A DNA stretch of 64,000 bases, from positions 36,001 to 100,000 of the forward strand of contig CAUYUJ010017789.1 of NCBI GenBank assembly GCA_963575745.1, written 5' to 3'. How positions within the stretch are numbered: the first letter of the stretch is position 1; each line of letters starts with the position of its first letter. This DNA is from Prorocentrum cordatum. Its lineage: Eukaryota > Sar > Dinophyceae > Prorocentrales > Prorocentraceae. Shown here piece by piece: positions 5,505 to 23,765 of the stretch. The notes under the pieces were generated by a model. That model did not search any database. It saw only the letters and a program-made list of their open reading frames with translations, and was not told the origin of the DNA. The position numbers were made by a program, and so were the translations under genes.

Positions 5505-6305
5505 CCAGGGATGAGGCTTGCCTGGGCCTGGCGTTCTTTACACCAGGGGTAGCATTGCCGAGTCGTCCTGGCGTCGCCTAGTTATTAGACTTTGGGTACA
5601 TATGCGCGCTCGCTGTCTGCGCGCGTATCAGGCGCCCCAGATGTGGGGGAAGGTGTGCCGCACGTGTGGATGGACTTATACCGTGGGCTTGGCACGGGGG
5701 TGGATCTCCGCCCTGACGGATGCTATGCCTCGGGGTCTTGTTTCATCTCTTGGCAGACAGATCTGTATGAAGCCTTTTTCCCCCGCGCTGGAGCGGAAGA
5801 AGGTGGGTCCTTGATCGCTCCGCCCAATTGGCCATAGGGCCGTATCTGGAGGGCCCACCACGGGGACACTGGCTCGTCGGTTGAGTTAGGCCCGAAACAG
5901 GGATGGAGCTGGCTATCGTCCTGGAGTTCGTTACACCAGGGGTAGTGCAGCCGAGGCGTCCTGGCGTCGCCTTGTGTGTCTGACGCGCACGTGCGTGAGC
6001 GCGTTTGTTCGGGCGTCAGGCTCCCCAGTTGTGGGGGACGGTGCGCAGCACGCGTTTTGCGAGCTTGACGTGGGCCTGGCACGGGGGCCTCGACGCCCTG
6101 ACCGTTGCCTTGCTCAGGCTCTAATTTCTGTCATCGTCCTGGCGTTCGTTACGCCAGGGACGAGTGTTGTCGTGCGCTGTGGGTGGGATGCTTGCACGTG
6201 TATCAGGCACCCCAATTGTGGGGGAAGGTGCCCTGCGCGTGTGGATGGATTTCCCTGTGGCTTTGCACGGGGGCGGAGGATGTCCGCCCTGACCGATGCC
6301 AAGCC
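5505..6305. repeat. tandem array of three diverged ~200-bp units
   Basis: Units at about 5505-5728, 5898-6106 and 6109-6301. Each begins with a TGGCGTTC(T)TTACACCAGGG-type block, has a GTATCAGGC(G/A)CCCCA block in the middle, and ends in GCACGGGGG...CCCTGACNGATGCC. The gap at 5729-5897 shows nothing recognisable. Confidence 0.8.
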
Positions 6306-7982: not shown

Positions 7983-8190
7983 GGGCATGCCGGGCGTTAT
8001 GGCCCCCGCCGCCCCCCCCATCCCCCCATTGACGCAACGGTCCCCCCCCAGTGCGCTCTGGGCACTGCCACCGTGCGCATCGGGATCCGCAAAGATGTAG
8101 GAATCCGCATCGGATTCTGGTCCGCGGTCGTCGTCGTGGTCGTCGTCGTGGTCGTCGTCGTGGTCGTCGTCGTCGTCGTCGCTCGTCGCT
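7983..8190. repeat. repeat family L, left part (split by the retrotransposon)
   Basis: The block from GGGCGTTATGGCCCCC through GTGCGCATCGGGATCCGCA into a TCG array is homologous to 20936-21170. Here the element is interrupted at 8190. Its right part resumes at 14768, after the retrotransposon. Confidence 0.85.
8175..8190. repeat. 16-bp target-site duplication, left copy
   Basis: GTCGTCGCTCGTCGCT, identical to 14768-14783. It abuts the SL start at 8191. The match lies in TCG-rich DNA, but the GCTCGTCGCT phase and the exact abutment on both sides support a true duplication. Confidence 0.8.
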
Positions 8191-8212
8191 TCCGTAGCCA
8201 TTTTGGCTCAAG
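8191..8212 (+). other. genomically encoded spliced-leader sequence (exact)
   Basis: T followed by CCGTAGCCATTTTGGCTCA and AG: an exact match to the conserved 22-nt dinoflagellate SL that is trans-spliced onto nuclear mRNAs. The following base is the A of an ATG. An SL RNA gene would continue with the SL intron and Sm-site region, which is absent, so this is the SL of a reverse-transcribed mRNA. Confidence 0.95.
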
Positions 8213-11200
8213 ATGGTCACTGCCCGTGGCAGAGCACGGAGACCCTTGGTCCAGGGCCAGCTAGAAGGACTAAGCTATCACGCCTTCCTCGCGCCCGCGA
8301 GGTCGAGCTTCATATCCCGGCCGAGGCCGATCCCATCGCTCCCATGGCTCTTGGCGGCGGTGGTGGTGGCGAGTGCGGCAGTTTCGTACGGCGTCCATGG
8401 GCAAAGGTGTGGCCCTGGCGTCAGCAGGAGAGAGGACGGAAGGCATTCTGTCAGCAGTGTTGCGCTTGGCTGTTCATGGACAGGCTCGCGGACGCTGACT
8501 TCAAGTGCAAGTGCGGCGCCAGCAGCTGGGGGGCGGAGCCATCAGGAGGAGGAGCACCAGATCGTTCGCAACGTGACGGAGGCTTCGACGACTGGGGCTG
8601 GCCAGTCCTCGGAGCAGGGCGTGGCAAAGGCAGGCGCAAGGGTACTGGAGGAGGAGGTGATCTACAGCGGCCAGGAGGTTACGGAAATCAATCTGGTGGT
8701 GGAGGCGGCGGCAAGGATGACAAGGTGGCCGAACTTCTCGCACAAGCAGCAGCACTGGCTGGCGACGGCGCTTGGAAGCAGAAGATCGAGGCCCTACGCG
8801 CAGAGGCAGCACCACATCCACCAGCAGTTCAGCATCCACAGCCTGGATCCCGTCAGGCGCTCAGAGCAGCAGAAGATCGAGTACAAAAGGCACAGAGTGC
8901 GCAAACGAAGGCCTATCGCCGCCGAGAAAGGCTTCGAGAAGAACTCAAGCAAGCGGAGGATGACTTCAAGCAGCGCAGTGCAGAAGTGGCGGCGGCAGAG
9001 GCAGAGGTCAAAATCGAACTTCAGCGACATCCCCTCGGAGGCGACCTCAAGTGTGACGGGGCGCAGAACGCGAAGAAGCAGCGCGTGCTGCCCCTGGGCG
9101 CCCTCCTGGAGGACGAGGAGATCGACGTCGACCTGGGCAGCCTCTTCGAGTGCGCGAGCGACGACAACATCTCGGAGGCGGACAAGCAGGAGCTCGAGAA
9201 GAGGAAGAAGCTCTTCCTGGAGGCCGCGAAGGGAGCGGCGAAGGAGGCCTTCGCACAGGCGGCAGCTACACTCAAGCAGCAGAAGCAGCAGGAGCAGGAG
9301 TTCCTGGATCGGATTCGGAAGAAGCGCAAAGCGGACGCAGCCGAGTCTGAACTGGACGGAGCTGAAGCTGGAGCATCGGGAGGAGCGCCAGCGTCAGGCG
9401 GACCCCCTGCAGCTGCAGTGGGTGGGGCTCCACCAGCAGCGGCACAGCCAGCAGCAGCGGCAGCACCCGAAGCAGCAGCGCTATCCGAGAAGGAGGCGAA
9501 GGAGAAGCGTGAGCTGGCGGCAGCGGTCGAGGCCGCAAGGGTCGCAAACGCAGCTGGGCGAAGGGGTACGGCGAGCTCCTAGCCATACGATTTTCACGCA
9601 GAACTTGTCGACCTGGGGGCCCAGGTTGAAGAAGAAGATCGACTCGCTCAGGGACGACGTGATTATCTTCCCTGAGACGCACGTCGGCGCCGACGGCACG
9701 AACGAGATCGTCGAGCACCTGGACTTCAGGGGCTTCAAGGCGGTGGTCACGCCGTCGGTCAAGAACAGGCGGAGTGAGTTGGCAGGCGGCATCGGCATGG
9801 CCATGAGAGGTTTCTTGTCAGTGACGTCTATGCGACACTTGGCAGCGAAGAAGGAGCAGGCAGTGGGGATGCGGTATCTGGACGGCGATTGGGAGCCAGG
9901 GCCGATCGACTTCCAGGACATGGTAGCAGCGCAGTGGCGGTGGCGCGGGCAGTCGGTCCTGGTCATCGGCATGTACCTCACGTCGTCTATCGGCATGAGC
10001 GGCGAGAACCACCAGAAGATGGCGCGCCTCGCGGCGCTCACGCGCGGCCACAGTGGGCCGTGGGCTGCGATAGGCGACTGGAATGCGGAGCCGAGGGAGC
10101 TCCAGGCGGCAGGGTGGTTAAGACTGCTCGACGCGAAGGTGATCACGCCAGCTGACGTCAGCTACACGTGCACGCGCAACCCTGCGCGCATGCTCGACTA
10201 CGTGGTGTGCTCGGAGACGTTCTCGATGATCGTGGATAGAGTTGATACAGATCGCCATGACCCTGGGGATCACTACGGCGTACGAGTCCACTTGAGGGGG
10301 GACTCGAGGATCGCGATGCAGCGCAACCTGCAGCTCGCGAAGCCCTTTCCCTTGCCAGATATGCCGAAGCGGAAGGCGGACCCGAACAGCAAGCGGTCCA
10401 GGCAGAAGGCGAAGAAGCAGAGCGAGTACGAGGCAGGTGCGTTGAGCGCTGCGAGGAATGCGGAGGCCCCGCCCTCCTCGGAGCCCTCCCTCCCCAGGTT
10501 TGATCGAGGCGAGCGGAAGAAGGACGTGGTCGTCTGCGAGGCGGTGCCGCAGGAGTGCCAGCAGCAGAGCGAGCTGGCGGAGCTTTTCGGCGGGAGCAGC
10601 GACGAGGACGGGATACTCAGCGAGAATGAGGAGGCCTCGGAGGAAGCTGTCGCCGAGCCGAAGGCGGACGAGATCTTCGACCTGGAGATCGAGAAGCGCA
10701 ACCTCCTGTGGCACGAGAAGTACCGCACGGCAGTCGCCGAGGACCGCATCGCCTGGAGGCAGCCAGCGCAGTACGTGAAGCAGACGCTTGCCTACACCTT
10801 CGACGAGGAGGGGGCACGCGAGCTTGGGGCACGCTACGGCGCCTGGGTGCACGCGGTGGAGCAGTACTACATGGCGTCTCTACAGATCAAGGCCGAGGAG
10901 CGCAGCATCTACCTCGGGCGCGGCGAGGAGGTCAGGTTCAAGAAGGGCAAGACCAAGCTCGGCATCGGCGTCAGCGCCGACCTGGATCAGTCAATCAGGT
11001 GGTGGGGCACGCTGGCGTCGTACCTGGTCGAGCTGCAGCGCTGCGAGGGCAAGGGGCAACGAGCGCAGCGGCTACGTGACGACTGCAGAGCACTCAGCAG
11101 CACGATGCCTAGTGGCGGCGTCATCAAGATGACAGCGAAACAGAAGAGGAAGTGGCGAGTGGCTCTCAGCGGCATACGCGGCATGTCCAATGTGCAAGTG

Positions 11201-14200
11201 CAGCACCTCGGCGTGGCCGCGCTCACCACAGCAAAGAAGGGTAAGCGCACGGAGGTTGGCGAAGCTTTGCTGGCCTACACTAATTGGGTGCAGGAGCAGG
11301 AAGCGGCAGGCAGCGGCAAGTTGCACCGCAAGACGAAAGACAAGCCGAGGTGTGACAATGAGGTGCGCAGCCAGGGCGTCACCGCATCGGACATGGTGGA
11401 GTACATGGACGCGAAGGGCGCGGTGTGGAGCAAGAAGTGGAAGAGCAACTTCAGCACGCAGGCAATCGTGCAGCGCCTGGAGCAGTCTCGGAAGGTGGCC
11501 ACGGAGGAGGACTGGGCGCCCATCACCATCGAGAGCCTCAACGTTGCCATCGACACGATGGCGAAGAGCAAGGCGAAGGGCGTAGAGCAGATGGGCGCCC
11601 TGGCTTTCAAGTGGTTGCCCCCAGAAGCCAGGGAGGAGTTGCGCATCATCATCGAGGAGGTCGAGCGCACTGGTACATGGCCGTGGCAGCTGATGGTCAC
11701 GCTTGTCAGCTTGCTGCGCAAGGATGCAGGAGGAGACAGGGCGATTGGGCTGCTGCCCGAAGTGGTCAAGCTCTGGTCCAAGGTGCGAAGCGAGTTCACC
11801 AACGAGTGGGTCGTCGCCATGGCGGGGAAGTGGGATGCAGCGATCGCGGGGAACAGTGCTCTCAAGGAGGCCCTGGTTCGCTCCTTCTCCGACGAGGTGA
11901 TAGAGTGGATGCCAGTGAAGATCTACTCGGTGACAGCGCTGTGGGACCTGGCGGAGTTCTACGACACTCTAGAGCCCCTCCTCATCCTGGACGAGGGGCT
12001 CAGGCTGGGGCTTCCAGCCCGCACTCTGCACCTGGAGGTGCTGAGCCACCTAAGTGCACGCCTCATCAGAGAGAGGACGGCTTACGCAGAGCCGATCGCG
12101 CCCGACAGGTCCATCTGCGCGGGCGCGAGGCGGGGCATCGACTTCGGTAGGGTTGCGCTTTACGCCGTGCTGGAGCGGGTGAGCACAAAGTACGAGCAGG
12201 TACGAGTGCGATCGTGGGTCGACGACGTCACGACGAGGATGGAGGGCTCCAAGAAGGAGGTGATCAAGCAGTTGACGGGCGCGGGCGTGGAGTTCGCAGC
12301 TGGAGTGAAGAAGTCAAAGCTGACGCTCTCCACCAAGTCGGCGCTGATCGGCAACGACATGGACGTGGTGAAGGAAGTGGCCCTCAAGCTGAGGGCGCGC
12401 ATGATAACGGTGAAGGTAAGGAGTCAAGCGCCCGACTTGGGCATCGACCGAGGCCGCAGCATCGCGGGCGGCAAGGGCAAGCACGCGAGGAGGGCGGCGC
12501 ATGCAGACAGACAAGTAGCGCGCACCCTGAAGATGGCGCGAAGTGGCAGGCGCGCCAGAGGCGGCGCACGTGCAGTGGTGCAGCGCGGGTCCTTGCCGCG
12601 CGCCGCCTACTCGTGCAAGGTGTTCGGGATGGCACCCAGCACCGTGCTGAAGTGGAGGAGGAGGCTAGCAGCGACCATCGCCCCGAGGCTGCGGGGGAGG
12701 TGCCTCACGACGCTGCTCAGCATCGAGATTGCGAAGGGGGACCCCGCGTTCGGAGCCGTTTTCGCGCTGCTGGACTCGTGGATGCACATCATCAGCGACA
12801 AGTTGAGGAGGCAGAAGGTCAGCATCATCTGGCCGCGGATCGTCGAGAAGGTGTCGAAGCTGGACCCGAAGAAGCGCTGGAAGGGTGTGACGGGCATCAC
12901 CAGGGCGATGGTCAACACCCTGCTGGACTTGGGCTGGTCCATGCTGGGGCCGCGGCACTGGGTCTCGGACGACGGCGAGGAGTTCGGCAGCGACGACCCC
13001 TCGGCGCTCGACGGCGGCGTGGACACCAGCGACTTGAAGCAGGCGATCGCCAGTACTATTGAGAGGAAGCAGTGGCAGCAGGCGGTCAAGCACTACGCGG
13101 GAGGCGGCATGGAGGCGGGCGCGGACACGCGCTCAGCGAGGTCGCTCATCAAGAAGCTTAAGAGGAAGGGCGAGCACGACAAGGTCGGCGCGCATTTGGC
13201 GTGCTTGACGGGCGGAGTCTGGCCGAGGCAGCGCGTGGCAGATCTCGGGCTGGAGATCGAGGATGTCACGTGCCCGCGTTGTGGCGAAGCACCAGAAACC
13301 TGGCAGCACCGCATGTGGGAATGCAAGTGTAACGAGCTGATCGAGGAGTGCCAGAAGTCCAAGCACCTAGAGGAGAAGGCCGTGAGGGGCGTCGAGGAGG
13401 TGCCGTGCCTGTGGCTCAGAGGCATTTTGCCGAAGAGCTGGACGCAGATCCCACCCCCGCCTGAGCCAGGGACAGAGATGTGGGAGCAGTTCGGTAACCT
13501 GGAACGTCTCAGGGTCACTGCCCCCTCAGGCACGCACCGCCCACCCTCCCAGCCCGTTTGGCAATGGAGGGCAGGGAGTACCGACCTGGGGGAGGCCAAC
13601 CCTGTGGACGACGGTGGCTGGCTCATTGCTGCAGGCGACGCATCGGGCGGCGAGTACACCATGGACCCCAGGCTGAGACGGGTGGCTTGGGGCTGGGTTG
13701 TGATGCAGCCAGAGAACGTGAACGAGCCGATGGTGGTGGCAGGAGCGCGTGCCGCTCTGGGCGGCTGGCGGCAGAGCGTCAACCGCGGCGAGCTGACGGC
13801 GCTGAAGGAGCTGATGGTGGCCACCGCCAACTACAAGAGAGTGCAGTACATTGCGGACTCGTCCTACGTCATGCGCGGGGTCGAGAAGTTACGCAGAGGG
13901 AAGATGCCCAAAACTCACATCGACTTATGGAACGAGCTGAAGGTGGCCATGGTCGGTAGAGAGCTGTGGATGATCAAGGTCGAGAGCCACATGTCCGCGG
14001 TCGAGGCAGTGGCGGCAGGCATCGACCCGATCAGCTACCTGGGCAACTCGTTAGCGGACAGCTTCGTGGACGGCATCATCGAGCGGGTGCAGGTGGCGCG
14101 CGGAGACGCACTCAGGGTCGGCTGGTGTGACGGGATCGCCTCGCTGATCAGGAGCAGAGGATACGCGACTCTGATGGCGGCGATCGAAGTGGAGCCGTCG

Positions 14201-14683
14201 ATGGCGCCAAGCAGACCACAGCGCCACGAGGCGTACCTCAAGAAGCAGAGGAGGAAGGAGCGTCTCACCAACACGCAGCACGTGATCGAGGAAGTCAACG
14301 ACGGCAAGCAGTTCCGCTGCACGCGGTGCGGGAGCCTGGTGCCTGTCGTTGGCGCGGACACAGACAAGTGGCTGGAGGGCAAGTGCGTGAAGCTGGTGCG
14401 CGAGCAGGCGTCGGAGTTCGGCGCCTCGTCCCTGGGTGTGCAGGTGGGCCACCAGAGGGCGCACCCCTCCCACCAGCTGAACTACAACGAGGAGCTCGGC
14501 CTGCACTACTGCCTCAAGTGCGGGTGCATCGCACGGGAGAGCATGCGTTCACTCGCGATGGAGTGCGGGGAGCTGAAGCAGATGGGCAAGCAGAATCTGT
14601 CGCAGATCAAGAAGGGGCTCCAGCCGGGCACGAGCAAGTTCGCGCGGGACTGGAACCGCAAGAAGAAGGAGGCGCTGGGTTGA
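8213..14683 (+). CDS. retrotransposon ORF2: endonuclease, reverse transcriptase, RNase H
   Basis: This frame is open for 2156 codons from the ATG touching the SL (AAGATGG, strong context). Conserved protein begins only near 9590. An AP-type endonuclease shows ETH (Glu488), GDWN (621-624), LDYVV and GDH (686-687). The reverse transcriptase shows GDRAIGLLPEVVKLW, motif A WDLAEFYDT, and the catalytic WVDD at residues 1335-1338 (12215-12226). A CPRC...H...C zinc motif starts at residue 1687. RNase HI has Asp1809, Glu1860, Asp1882 and Asp1949. Two C-terminal zinc-ribbon-like CxxC pairs follow (CTRC, CLKC). The domain order matches an APE-type non-LTR pol protein. Residues 1-457 overlap ORF1 in another frame and look like low-information Arg/Ser sequence. 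The next in-frame ATG (9797) lies inside the endonuclease, so ORF2 must start at 8213 or be reached by frameshift or reinitiation. Confidence 0.88.
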   Translation: MVTARGRARRPLVQGQLEGLSYHAFLAPARSSFISRPRPIPSLPWLLAAVVVASAAVSYGVHGQRCGPGVSRREDGRHSVSSVALGCSWTGSRTLTSSASAAPAAGGRSHQEEEHQIVRNVTEASTTGAGQSSEQGVAKAGARVLEEEVIYSGQEVTEINLVVEAAARMTRWPNFSHKQQHWLATALGSRRSRPYAQRQHHIHQQFSIHSLDPVRRSEQQKIEYKRHRVRKRRPIAAEKGFEKNSSKRRMTSSSAVQKWRRQRQRSKSNFSDIPSEATSSVTGRRTRRSSACCPWAPSWRTRRSTSTWAASSSARATTTSRRRTSRSSRRGRSSSWRPRRERRRRPSHRRQLHSSSRSSRSRSSWIGFGRSAKRTQPSLNWTELKLEHREERQRQADPLQLQWVGLHQQRHSQQQRQHPKQQRYPRRRRRRSVSWRQRSRPQGSQTQLGEGVRRAPSHTIFTQNLSTWGPRLKKKIDSLRDDVIIFPETHVGADGTNEIVEHLDFRGFKAVVTPSVKNRRSELAGGIGMAMRGFLSVTSMRHLAAKKEQAVGMRYLDGDWEPGPIDFQDMVAAQWRWRGQSVLVIGMYLTSSIGMSGENHQKMARLAALTRGHSGPWAAIGDWNAEPRELQAAGWLRLLDAKVITPADVSYTCTRNPARMLDYVVCSETFSMIVDRVDTDRHDPGDHYGVRVHLRGDSRIAMQRNLQLAKPFPLPDMPKRKADPNSKRSRQKAKKQSEYEAGALSAARNAEAPPSSEPSLPRFDRGERKKDVVVCEAVPQECQQQSELAELFGGSSDEDGILSENEEASEEAVAEPKADEIFDLEIEKRNLLWHEKYRTAVAEDRIAWRQPAQYVKQTLAYTFDEEGARELGARYGAWVHAVEQYYMASLQIKAEERSIYLGRGEEVRFKKGKTKLGIGVSADLDQSIRWWGTLASYLVELQRCEGKGQRAQRLRDDCRALSSTMPSGGVIKMTAKQKRKWRVALSGIRGMSNVQVQHLGVAALTTAKKGKRTEVGEALLAYTNWVQEQEAAGSGKLHRKTKDKPRCDNEVRSQGVTASDMVEYMDAKGAVWSKKWKSNFSTQAIVQRLEQSRKVATEEDWAPITIESLNVAIDTMAKSKAKGVEQMGALAFKWLPPEAREELRIIIEEVERTGTWPWQLMVTLVSLLRKDAGGDRAIGLLPEVVKLWSKVRSEFTNEWVVAMAGKWDAAIAGNSALKEALVRSFSDEVIEWMPVKIYSVTALWDLAEFYDTLEPLLILDEGLRLGLPARTLHLEVLSHLSARLIRERTAYAEPIAPDRSICAGARRGIDFGRVALYAVLERVSTKYEQVRVRSWVDDVTTRMEGSKKEVIKQLTGAGVEFAAGVKKSKLTLSTKSALIGNDMDVVKEVALKLRARMITVKVRSQAPDLGIDRGRSIAGGKGKHARRAAHADRQVARTLKMARSGRRARGGARAVVQRGSLPRAAYSCKVFGMAPSTVLKWRRRLAATIAPRLRGRCLTTLLSIEIAKGDPAFGAVFALLDSWMHIISDKLRRQKVSIIWPRIVEKVSKLDPKKRWKGVTGITRAMVNTLLDLGWSMLGPRHWVSDDGEEFGSDDPSALDGGVDTSDLKQAIASTIERKQWQQAVKHYAGGGMEAGADTRSARSLIKKLKRKGEHDKVGAHLACLTGGVWPRQRVADLGLEIEDVTCPRCGEAPETWQHRMWECKCNELIEECQKSKHLEEKAVRGVEEVPCLWLRGILPKSWTQIPPPPEPGTEMWEQFGNLERLRVTAPSGTHRPPSQPVWQWRAGSTDLGEANPVDDGGWLIAAGDASGGEYTMDPRLRRVAWGWVVMQPENVNEPMVVAGARAALGGWRQSVNRGELTALKELMVATANYKRVQYIADSSYVMRGVEKLRRGKMPKTHIDLWNELKVAMVGRELWMIKVESHMSAVEAVAAGIDPISYLGNSLADSFVDGIIERVQVARGDALRVGWCDGIASLIRSRGYATLMAAIEVEPSMAPSRPQRHEAYLKKQRRKERLTNTQHVIEEVNDGKQFRCTRCGSLVPVVGADTDKWLEGKCVKLVREQASEFGASSLGVQVGHQRAHPSHQLNYNEELGLHYCLKCGCIARESMRSLAMECGELKQMGKQNLSQIKKGLQPGTSKFARDWNRKKKEALG
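8344..9582 (+). CDS. retrotransposon ORF1, zinc-binding coiled-coil protein
   Basis: This is a 412-residue frame from ATG 8344 (context CCCATGG) to TAG 9580-9582. The start was chosen as the first ATG in this frame. A CQQC...CKCG four-cysteine zinc motif lies at about residues 36-60, followed by a Gly/Arg-rich linker. Charged heptad-like helices span about 124-226 and 273-332 (ELEKRKKLFLEAAK, then IRKKRKAD), and the C-terminus is Ala/Pro-rich. This layout suits the RNA-binding or RNP-forming first ORF of a LINE-type element, though I recognise no named ORF1 family. The whole frame overlaps the open ORF2 frame. ORF2's endonuclease begins immediately after the ORF1 stop. The first ATG of the SL-capped mRNA is 8213, not this one, so ORF1 would need leaky scanning. 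Confidence 0.75.
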   Translation: MALGGGGGGECGSFVRRPWAKVWPWRQQERGRKAFCQQCCAWLFMDRLADADFKCKCGASSWGAEPSGGGAPDRSQRDGGFDDWGWPVLGAGRGKGRRKGTGGGGDLQRPGGYGNQSGGGGGGKDDKVAELLAQAAALAGDGAWKQKIEALRAEAAPHPPAVQHPQPGSRQALRAAEDRVQKAQSAQTKAYRRRERLREELKQAEDDFKQRSAEVAAAEAEVKIELQRHPLGGDLKCDGAQNAKKQRVLPLGALLEDEEIDVDLGSLFECASDDNISEADKQELEKRKKLFLEAAKGAAKEAFAQAAATLKQQKQQEQEFLDRIRKKRKADAAESELDGAEAGASGGAPASGGPPAAAVGGAPPAAAQPAAAAAPEAAALSEKEAKEKRELAAAVEAARVANAAGRRGTASS

Positions 14684-14767
14684 GTTGCGCGCCGTTTGCG
14701 CGCCGCTCTCGCCCTCCGCACTGCCCCCAGCCTGGGGGACCAGCGCCGCAGGCCAGGTCTTACAAAA
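14684..14767 (+). other. 3' UTR and end of the retrotransposon
   Basis: 84 bp after the ORF2 stop, ending in ACAAAA directly before the right target duplication. The A-run is only four bases long. Confidence 0.7.
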
Positions 14768-14783
14768 GTCGTCGCTCGTCGCT
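14768..14783. repeat. 16-bp target-site duplication, right copy
   Basis: Identical to 8175-8190. Confidence 0.8.
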
Positions 14784-14837
14784 CGTCGCTCGTCGCTCAT
14801 CGTCGTCGTGCGCGCGTGCGCGGTTGGAACCTGTTTT
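14768..14837. repeat. repeat family L, right part
   Basis: GTCGCTCGTCGCTCATCGTCG, then GTGCGCGCG...GGAACCTGTTTTTT; homologous to 21160-21228 in the uninterrupted copy. Confidence 0.8.
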
Positions 14838-15441
14838 TTCCCTACCTAGGCTCTGCCTAGAAGGGTTCTTACTCTCTTTGCTTAAAGGGGCCGGGCAGTG
14901 TTCCCCGCCCCAGGCGGTTCCCCCAGGATCCGCCCCGCGGTTCCCCCAGTTACGTCCCCTTAGTTTAGCGTTGCTTATATCATCTTAGCTTAGCTTGTTT
15001 CATCTTAGCTTAGCTTAGCTTCATTTTAGCTCAGGTTTATCTTAGCTTACCTTCATCTGAGCCTCGCTGAGCTTTAGCATAGCATAGCACAGCATAGCGT
15101 AGCATAGCATCGCGCAGCATAGCATATCATAACATAGCCCATCATAGCATAGCATAGTGCAGCATAGCATAGCATAGCACAGCCTAGCATAGCTGAGCAT
15201 ATCTTAGCATAGCTTAGCATAGCTTAGCTAGCACAGCGCAGCATGACATAGCATAGCTTAGCATGTCATAGCATTACATAGCATATCATAACATATCATA
15301 GCTTAGCGCATCATAGCATAGCATAGCATAGCGCAGCATAGCGCAGCATAGCATGGCATAGCATAGCATAACATAGCATAGCATAGCATAGCATAGCAGC
15401 TAATGCTGCTTTTCTAGGGGCTCCAACTTCTAGGTAGGGTC
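14838..15441. repeat. repeat family K, copy 1 (AGCTT/AGCAT-rich)
   Basis: A unique 125-bp head (CCCTACCTAGGCTCTGCC...GGGCCGGGCAGTG...GGCGGTTCCCC) is followed by about 400 bp of degenerate AGCTT then AGCAT pentamers. A tail follows: CTAGGGGCTCCAACTTCTAG and GTAGGG. The ends are inverted relative to each other (CCCTACCTAG / CTAGGTAGGG), suggesting one element. Confidence 0.75.
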
Positions 15442-21163: not shown

Positions 21164-21235
21164 TGTGCTCGTCGCTCGTCGCTCATTATCGTCGTGCGCG
21201 CGGACGCGGCTGGAGCCTGTTTTTTTATTCTCTTG
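20936..21235. repeat. repeat family L, uninterrupted copy (empty site)
   Basis: Left part GGGCGTCATGGCCCCC...GCGCATCGGGATCCGCA, TCG array 21085-21166, right part GCTCGTCGCTCATTATCGTC...GGAGCCTGTTTTTTT. It matches 7983-8190 plus 14768-14837 with the retrotransposon removed. Confidence 0.85.
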
Positions 21236-23743: not shown

Positions 23744-23765
23744 TCCGTAGCTATTTCGGCTCAAG
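23744..23765 (+). other. spliced-leader relic, two transitions
   Basis: TCCGTAGC, T instead of C, ATTT, C instead of T, GGCTCAAG: 20 of 22 SL positions match. Located 34 bp before ATG 23799. Confidence 0.85.

Follow-up and report, generated by a model that had tools for sequence, protein, structure and literature searches.

Dinoflagellate retrogenes tagged with the spliced leader (SL), known as DinoSL-DinoRL, were reportedly described by Slamovits and Keeling in 2008, and the LINE types that target microsatellites include Mino, Dong and Kibi. Such SL-tagged retrogenes are treated in the available portions of PMC6050394, PMC12014239 and PMC3229502, where the type of element responsible for SL retroposition is called unknown with LTR elements favoured (PMC6050394), and where it is noted that relict SLs may be excised by trans-splicing (PMC3229502). 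Ty1/copia ESTs have been found in Oxyrrhis, as an excerpt of PMC3942190 states, and in Hydra the host SL is present on some 30% of the Iso-Seq reads from TEs, according to an excerpt of PMC12220107. Neither LINEs with an SL head in dinoflagellate genomes nor relics of the SL at microsatellites are reported in the available portions of the matches listed from the open-licence PMC literature (PMC7245778, PMC10666404, PMC11453091 and PMC7789003 among them).

The DNA considered here is a 64,000-nucleotide stretch of the genome of Prorocentrum cordatum, a marine alga that forms blooms (the window; positions 36001-100000 of its contig, in an assembly of 4.13 Gb), and it carries a LINE of 6,577 bp at 8191-14767, base 1 of which is the start of an exact 22-nt dinoflagellate SL. 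Taken with its relatives the insertion suggests a family of jumping genes, headed by the SL, that copies itself back into DNA from spliced RNA and mostly into simple repeats. This would link an identified RT family to SL-tagged retroposition, a matter that the dinoflagellate literature leaves open.

The insertion and its family

The insertion and its flanks are made up of the following features.

8175..8190, + strand: left target-site duplication GTCGTCGCTCGTCGCT in a GTC-rich tract, an exact repeat at both flanks
8191..8212, + strand: 22-nt dinoflagellate SL TCCGTAGCCATTTTGGCTCAAG, starting at the first base of the insertion, with the same start in 8/8 full-length same-family copies with a readable 5' end
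8213..8343, + strand: leader (5' UTR) with a conserved upstream ATG and two covarying hairpins, common to other element families
8344..9582, + strand: ORF1, 412 aa, start CCATGG, no Pfam match above cut-off; 37/51 variable sites are third codon positions
9584..14683, + strand: ORF2 frame with endonuclease, reverse transcriptase and RNase H, open upstream to the ATG at 8213
14684..14767, + strand: 3' UTR of 84 nt, without poly(A), ending in TTACAAAA at 14767
14768..14783, + strand: right target-site duplication

The earlier note had the insertion starting at base 1 of the SL, ending in ACAAAA and lying between perfect 16-bp duplications, and all of this was found in the sequence. The duplication of the window copy falls within a GTC-rich tract and so its 16 identical bases alone are weak evidence, but the window flanks joined with a single copy of it give an uninterrupted array, and other copies have duplications that are not periodic. 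Matches to GTCGTCGCTCGTCGCT with one mismatch number three, of which two overlap the right flank and the third lies at 21168. Within the window the last 21 nt of the SL have one exact match and one with two mismatches, as against 0.00 in shuffles; the second, at 23745-23765, has no trinucleotide repeat upstream and is perhaps a decayed SL relic.

Judged by its EEP endonuclease, its RT, its lack of LTRs and its target-site duplications of variable length, the insertion is an APE-type LINE (non-LTR retrotransposon), and the SL and the duplications point to retrotransposition through RNA. Between 8150 and 14800 the direct repeats found are weak, internal and 30-31 nt long, and none is terminal. 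ORF2 of the window copy matches Pfam families only below their curated cut-offs, EEP among them (PF03372, E 2.3e-4), and at E 0.1 there is no direct RVT_1 match; in a relative 88% identical over the RT region (P0002) EEP reaches 25.8 bits, above the cut-off of 24.5. The reverse transcriptase is assigned because ORF2 residues 675-1247 align to P0007 (26% identity, 4e-29), residues 1374-1588 of which match RVT_1 at 2.9e-9. Eight ORF2 homologues were found among 7,989 candidates scored, six of them named Prorocentrum cordatum, and a PDB sequence search gave no useful match.

ORF1 has its first in-frame ATG at 8344 and carries a stop in copy L014, and ORF2 lies in a different frame with no ATG nearby; the ATG at 8213 is a possible start of its translation. 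Most elements aligned retain this ATG, which follows the SL immediately, and in the window family it opens a frame through ORF1 into ORF2. As a true protein the resulting 2,156-aa frame was set aside as incidental, since variation in the ORF1 region tracks ORF1 codons and since the same frame is short in other elements (2-169 aa in eight, 561 aa in L020 and 788 aa in L017). Seven of the eight copies have no stop in it before the end of ORF2 or of sequence, L009 has one, in L010 two nucleotides are deleted near position 6,168, and the sequence of L011 runs into N after 6,470. Substitutions shared between copies lie at third codon positions in 85 of 108 cases against 82 of 178 private ones (Fisher p 4e-8), the private ones being nearer neutral and still above one third (p 4e-4). 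Purifying selection on both ORFs is thus evident from the inherited changes, a bias which means that the lineages evolved while both proteins were functional.

Copies were sought with the first kilobase of the element, SL included, as the query, 40 of 369 candidates being scored and then aligned. Eight full-length copies with a readable 5' end, the window's and seven others 97.8-99.2% identical to it, came from this search, and young copies of this kind suggest that the RT family was recently active. They make up two clades separated by 62 shared sites, and the window copy and L009 share 21. Reading the bases 5' of each, a check that the earlier note had proposed, gave unrelated upstream flanks and a start at SL base 1 in all eight; the SL in them has no changes, which means little at their low divergence. 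Copies with a longer 5' UTR and no SL, which by that note would refute the reading, were absent from these eight, and could be missed given a query that contains the SL and the numbers of candidates scored (40 of 369, and 40 of 55 in a separate search with the 3' end). Of the 46 rows matched by the first kilobase 35 include the leader, and each of these starts either within the SL or before it. The 3'-end search added C14790 and C4136, whose 5' ends fall in N, C18736 and C4570 (91%), with no element sequence at the expected 5' place, and C10941, a short fragment with a 144-bp 3' match at 99%; it also recovered L021. The 3' end of L011 is cut by N, L019 has a degenerate SL, and L021 (97.6%) is 5'-truncated at element position 780 and is without an SL.

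Duplications were found in nine of the twelve elements tested, namely in all seven same-family copies with both ends assembled and in L017 and L020, and not in L016, L019 or L021. They are 16-19 nt long in eight elements, with that of L015 (30 nt) not delimitable in pure repeat, and all nine begin GTC/ATC and follow [GTA]TC. Those of L010 (ATCGTCATGGTTCTTTTT), L013 (ATCATCAGCAGAAGCATC) and L014 (GTCGTGGTCGGTCCCCT) are non-periodic, the last two bases in L013 and the last one in L014 being equally assignable to the start of the element. GTC/ATC triplets make up at least 40% of the 30 bp upstream in 9/12 elements with both ends and in 6/10 others, as against 0.64% of window positions, and the window family inserts in simple repeats above background. 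Five extra T stand before the SL in L010, and one extra A at the 3' junction in L014 and L020; those in L010 and L014 give a hint on cDNA end joining and priming.

Leader and tandem spliced leaders

A 5' UTR beyond the SL had been denied to the element by the earlier note, and here it has to be corrected: 131 nt of leader separate the SL from the ORF1 ATG, and since this leader is conserved across families with covarying hairpins the element does possess its own 5' UTR. SL and leader are common to L022, L024, L025 and L026, whose bodies have 65-73% DNA identity, and to L023, L027 and L028, whose bodies are unalignable; L027 gives a weak RVT_1 match (E 0.0017, below cut-off) and the scanned pieces of L023 have no LINE domain. 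The 3' part of the SL followed by ATG and the exact leader core stands at 148 places in the genome.

The hairpin rows were hand-chosen so as to cover different families, and kinship between rows can raise covariation counts. One hairpin (columns 104-119, 16 elements, 94.8% of cells paired) has 18 two-sided changes in five of its six pairs with a score that 0/500 shuffles reach. The second, from 16 partly different elements, is 95.3% paired with 14 two-sided changes and 0/500 shuffles, with two of five measures not above shuffles (pairs changed on both sides, 329/500; pair types, 500/500). A further hairpin, CCGTG/CACGG, is conserved yet without covariation, and the leader's folding energy is unremarkable for a GC-rich element (rank 112 of 216). 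The two covarying hairpins probably serve an RNA function, be it translation, RNP assembly or promotion. An HDV-like ribozyme or other known RNA in the leader was considered and rejected on there being no credible Rfam match, and none of the Rfam matches in 8050-14900, taken up to E 5, was a ribozyme. A likeness to the tRNA A-box was seen in the leader, by eye only. The leader of L040 matches the common one for 67 nt and then passes into other sequence, with CCATGG at the switch, possibly a template switch between families.

Tandem SLs, with a full SL before a truncated one, are exact in L015, L062 and L133 and occur with mismatches in L046 and L134. L015 is a same-family copy in which the full SL is followed by CCATTTTGGCTCAAG, and among 80 sampled exact-SL sites the exact tandem of SL and CCATTTTGGCTCAAG is seen at nine, of which L062 and L133 also have the leader hairpin; an approximate truncated SL (up to 4 edits) follows the SL at nine more, some of which may be chance. 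A full SL before a truncated one needs transcription from upstream of the inserted SL and then trans-splicing at the inner AG, and the tandems are the strongest sign of renewed trans-splicing and show that inserted copies can become templates. Dependence on flanking promoters, as the earlier note had supposed, is likely, and is the best reading of them. The other seven of the eight family copies have a single SL only, which may reflect use of the last AG of the inserted SL, or descent from masters, or a promoter at SL base 1, and the tandems favour the first. When private and shared mutations are compared, the SL varies much like leader columns 23-67 (30/352 versus 51/703 cells).

Spliced leaders across the assembly

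The last 21 nt of the SL occur exactly 14,218 times in the assembly, the reversed control giving 0. In a sample of these sites (the first 80 of 100 listed places, in contig order) a short-period repeat lies in the 40 bp upstream in 56/80 at a score of at least 0.6 and in 50/80 at 0.75, as against 13.6% and 7.9% of positions in the window and 0/79 downstream stretches. The 56 divide into CCT (32), AGG (14), ATT (1), ATC (1), CGT (1) and other (7) repeats. SL base 1 is T in 72/80, and by loose match (up to 3 edits) the leader hairpin is found at 17/80. Three hand-picked repeat-flanked insertions gave matches to LINE domains, all below curated cut-off (EEP 0.001 in L094, RVT_1 2.3e-6 in L095 and EEP 0.0017 in L096). 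A separate SL-headed group (L063, L068, L087, L089, L136) has AGG-rich flanks and its own leader, AAACG...GATTAG-like in most.

Of the 24/80 SLs that score below 0.6 a few still end in a short CCT run (L116, L121, L126, L133), and the remainder could be older insertions, retrogenes of the host or genes for SL RNA. Three of the sampled sites, L112-L114, are nearly identical copies of a single site and so are not independent; they lie on one contig with shared up- and downstream sequence and no repeat flank, and could represent SL RNA genes or a different repeat.

Many of the SL "relics" in this genome may be the 5' ends of LINEs rather than host retrogenes, and SL relics alone are no proof of a host retrogene. 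A wider proposal, to which slightly less than an even chance is given, is that the LINEs of P. cordatum as a group gave up their own promoter and 5' terminus, with the SL as their permanent head, the inserted SL as the acceptor for its own replacement and microsatellites as landing sites, so that most of the 14,218 SLs would be LINE 5' ends. If so, counts of dinoflagellate retrogenes that go by the SL would be too high and the RTs of these LINEs would be the likely source of true retrogenes.

Probable route of copying and comparison with known systems

For the window family the sequences make quite probable a route in which a read-through transcript from the flank, with the trans-spliced SL as its 5' end, is used for target-primed reverse transcription into GTC/ATC repeats. 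The LINE RNA would be part of a longer transcript starting in flanking DNA, and trans-splicing would make the 22-nt SL its 5' end. Reverse transcription would then be primed at the target, presumably with the first nick at TC^RTC, and would leave duplications of mostly 16-19 nt. In the next round the AG ending the inserted SL (CTCAAG|ATG) would normally be the acceptor, a new SL replacing the old, so that the head stays one SL long; use of the inner AG (CCGTAG|CC) instead would give the tandem form. Because copies retain every base from the SL onward, their RNAs must have been complete up to the SL|ATG junction. That a LINE-like element was reinserted from an SL-trans-spliced RNA, as first proposed, is borne out by the SL at base 1, the target duplications and the tandems. 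The proposed copying back of mature mRNA fits the 5' end and not the 3' end, where copies have ACAAAA (perhaps one A more in L014) and no poly(A) tract.

It is unlikely that all SL-tagged copies come from a few master loci equipped with a native outron and acceptor, the inserted ones being dead on arrival. The single SL of 7/8 family copies and the long shared branches of the two clades (62 and 21 sites) would agree with masters, but no full-length copy without an SL is among the eight read (two further 5' ends lie in N gaps and two were not located), and the tandems indicate that inserted copies can serve as templates. Improbable too is a leader that is itself an internal promoter and starts transcription precisely at SL base 1, much as Pr77 of trypanosomatids starts it at +1, with the SL inherited as DNA. 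Such a promoter would fit a leader of ~130 nt that divergent elements conserve and that holds two covarying hairpins, a start constant across copies, an SL no more conserved than the adjacent leader block and the single SL of most copies; it cannot alone place a complete SL before a truncated one (L015, L062, L133), and the HDV-like ribozyme that Pr77 has is unmatched here. An artefact of assembly or a chimera at the SL junction, for which the short repeats around the insertion and the gaps of the assembly might speak, is hardly credible given an identical junction in eight separately placed copies with different flanks, seven with their own duplications. A passively mobilised host mRNA (retrogene) is equally hard to credit, even with the 5' SL as a published mark of dinoflagellate retrogenes (PMC6050394, in excerpt), for an insertion that encodes endonuclease, RT and RNase H, lacks poly(A) and has several near-identical copies with duplications.

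Copying from trans-spliced read-through RNA suggests a way for a LINE to keep its 5' end by means of host trans-splicing, of which the tandem SLs would be the record. With the DinoSL retrogenes the family shares an SL at the 5' end of inserted DNA and tandems of SL and CCATTTTGGCTCAAG through re-trans-splicing at the inner AG, but instead of the host-gene origin of those retrogenes there are LINE proteins and a multi-copy family, and the copied RNA is that of a LINE which brings its own RT, lacks poly(A) and sits in microsatellites. The trypanosomatid L1Tc/ingi elements with their Pr77 hallmark, so far as the excerpts of PMC8190864 and PMC4035085 describe them, are likewise LINEs in a trans-splicing host with a short 5' sequence conserved across families, to which the leader is analogous; transcripts from Pr77 are unspliced and it contains an HDV-like ribozyme, whereas here the SL heads the DNA and no ribozyme family was matched. 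In the Hydra transposons, to judge from the same excerpt as above, the SL is on the RNA, whereas in P. cordatum it is fixed in genomic copies. Microsatellite-targeted LINEs, as far as the excerpted PMC4640811 goes, share the preference for simple repeats as insertion sites, and the P. cordatum elements differ from them in their targets, GTC/ATC for the window family and CCT and AGG for other SL-headed groups, and in the SL at their head.
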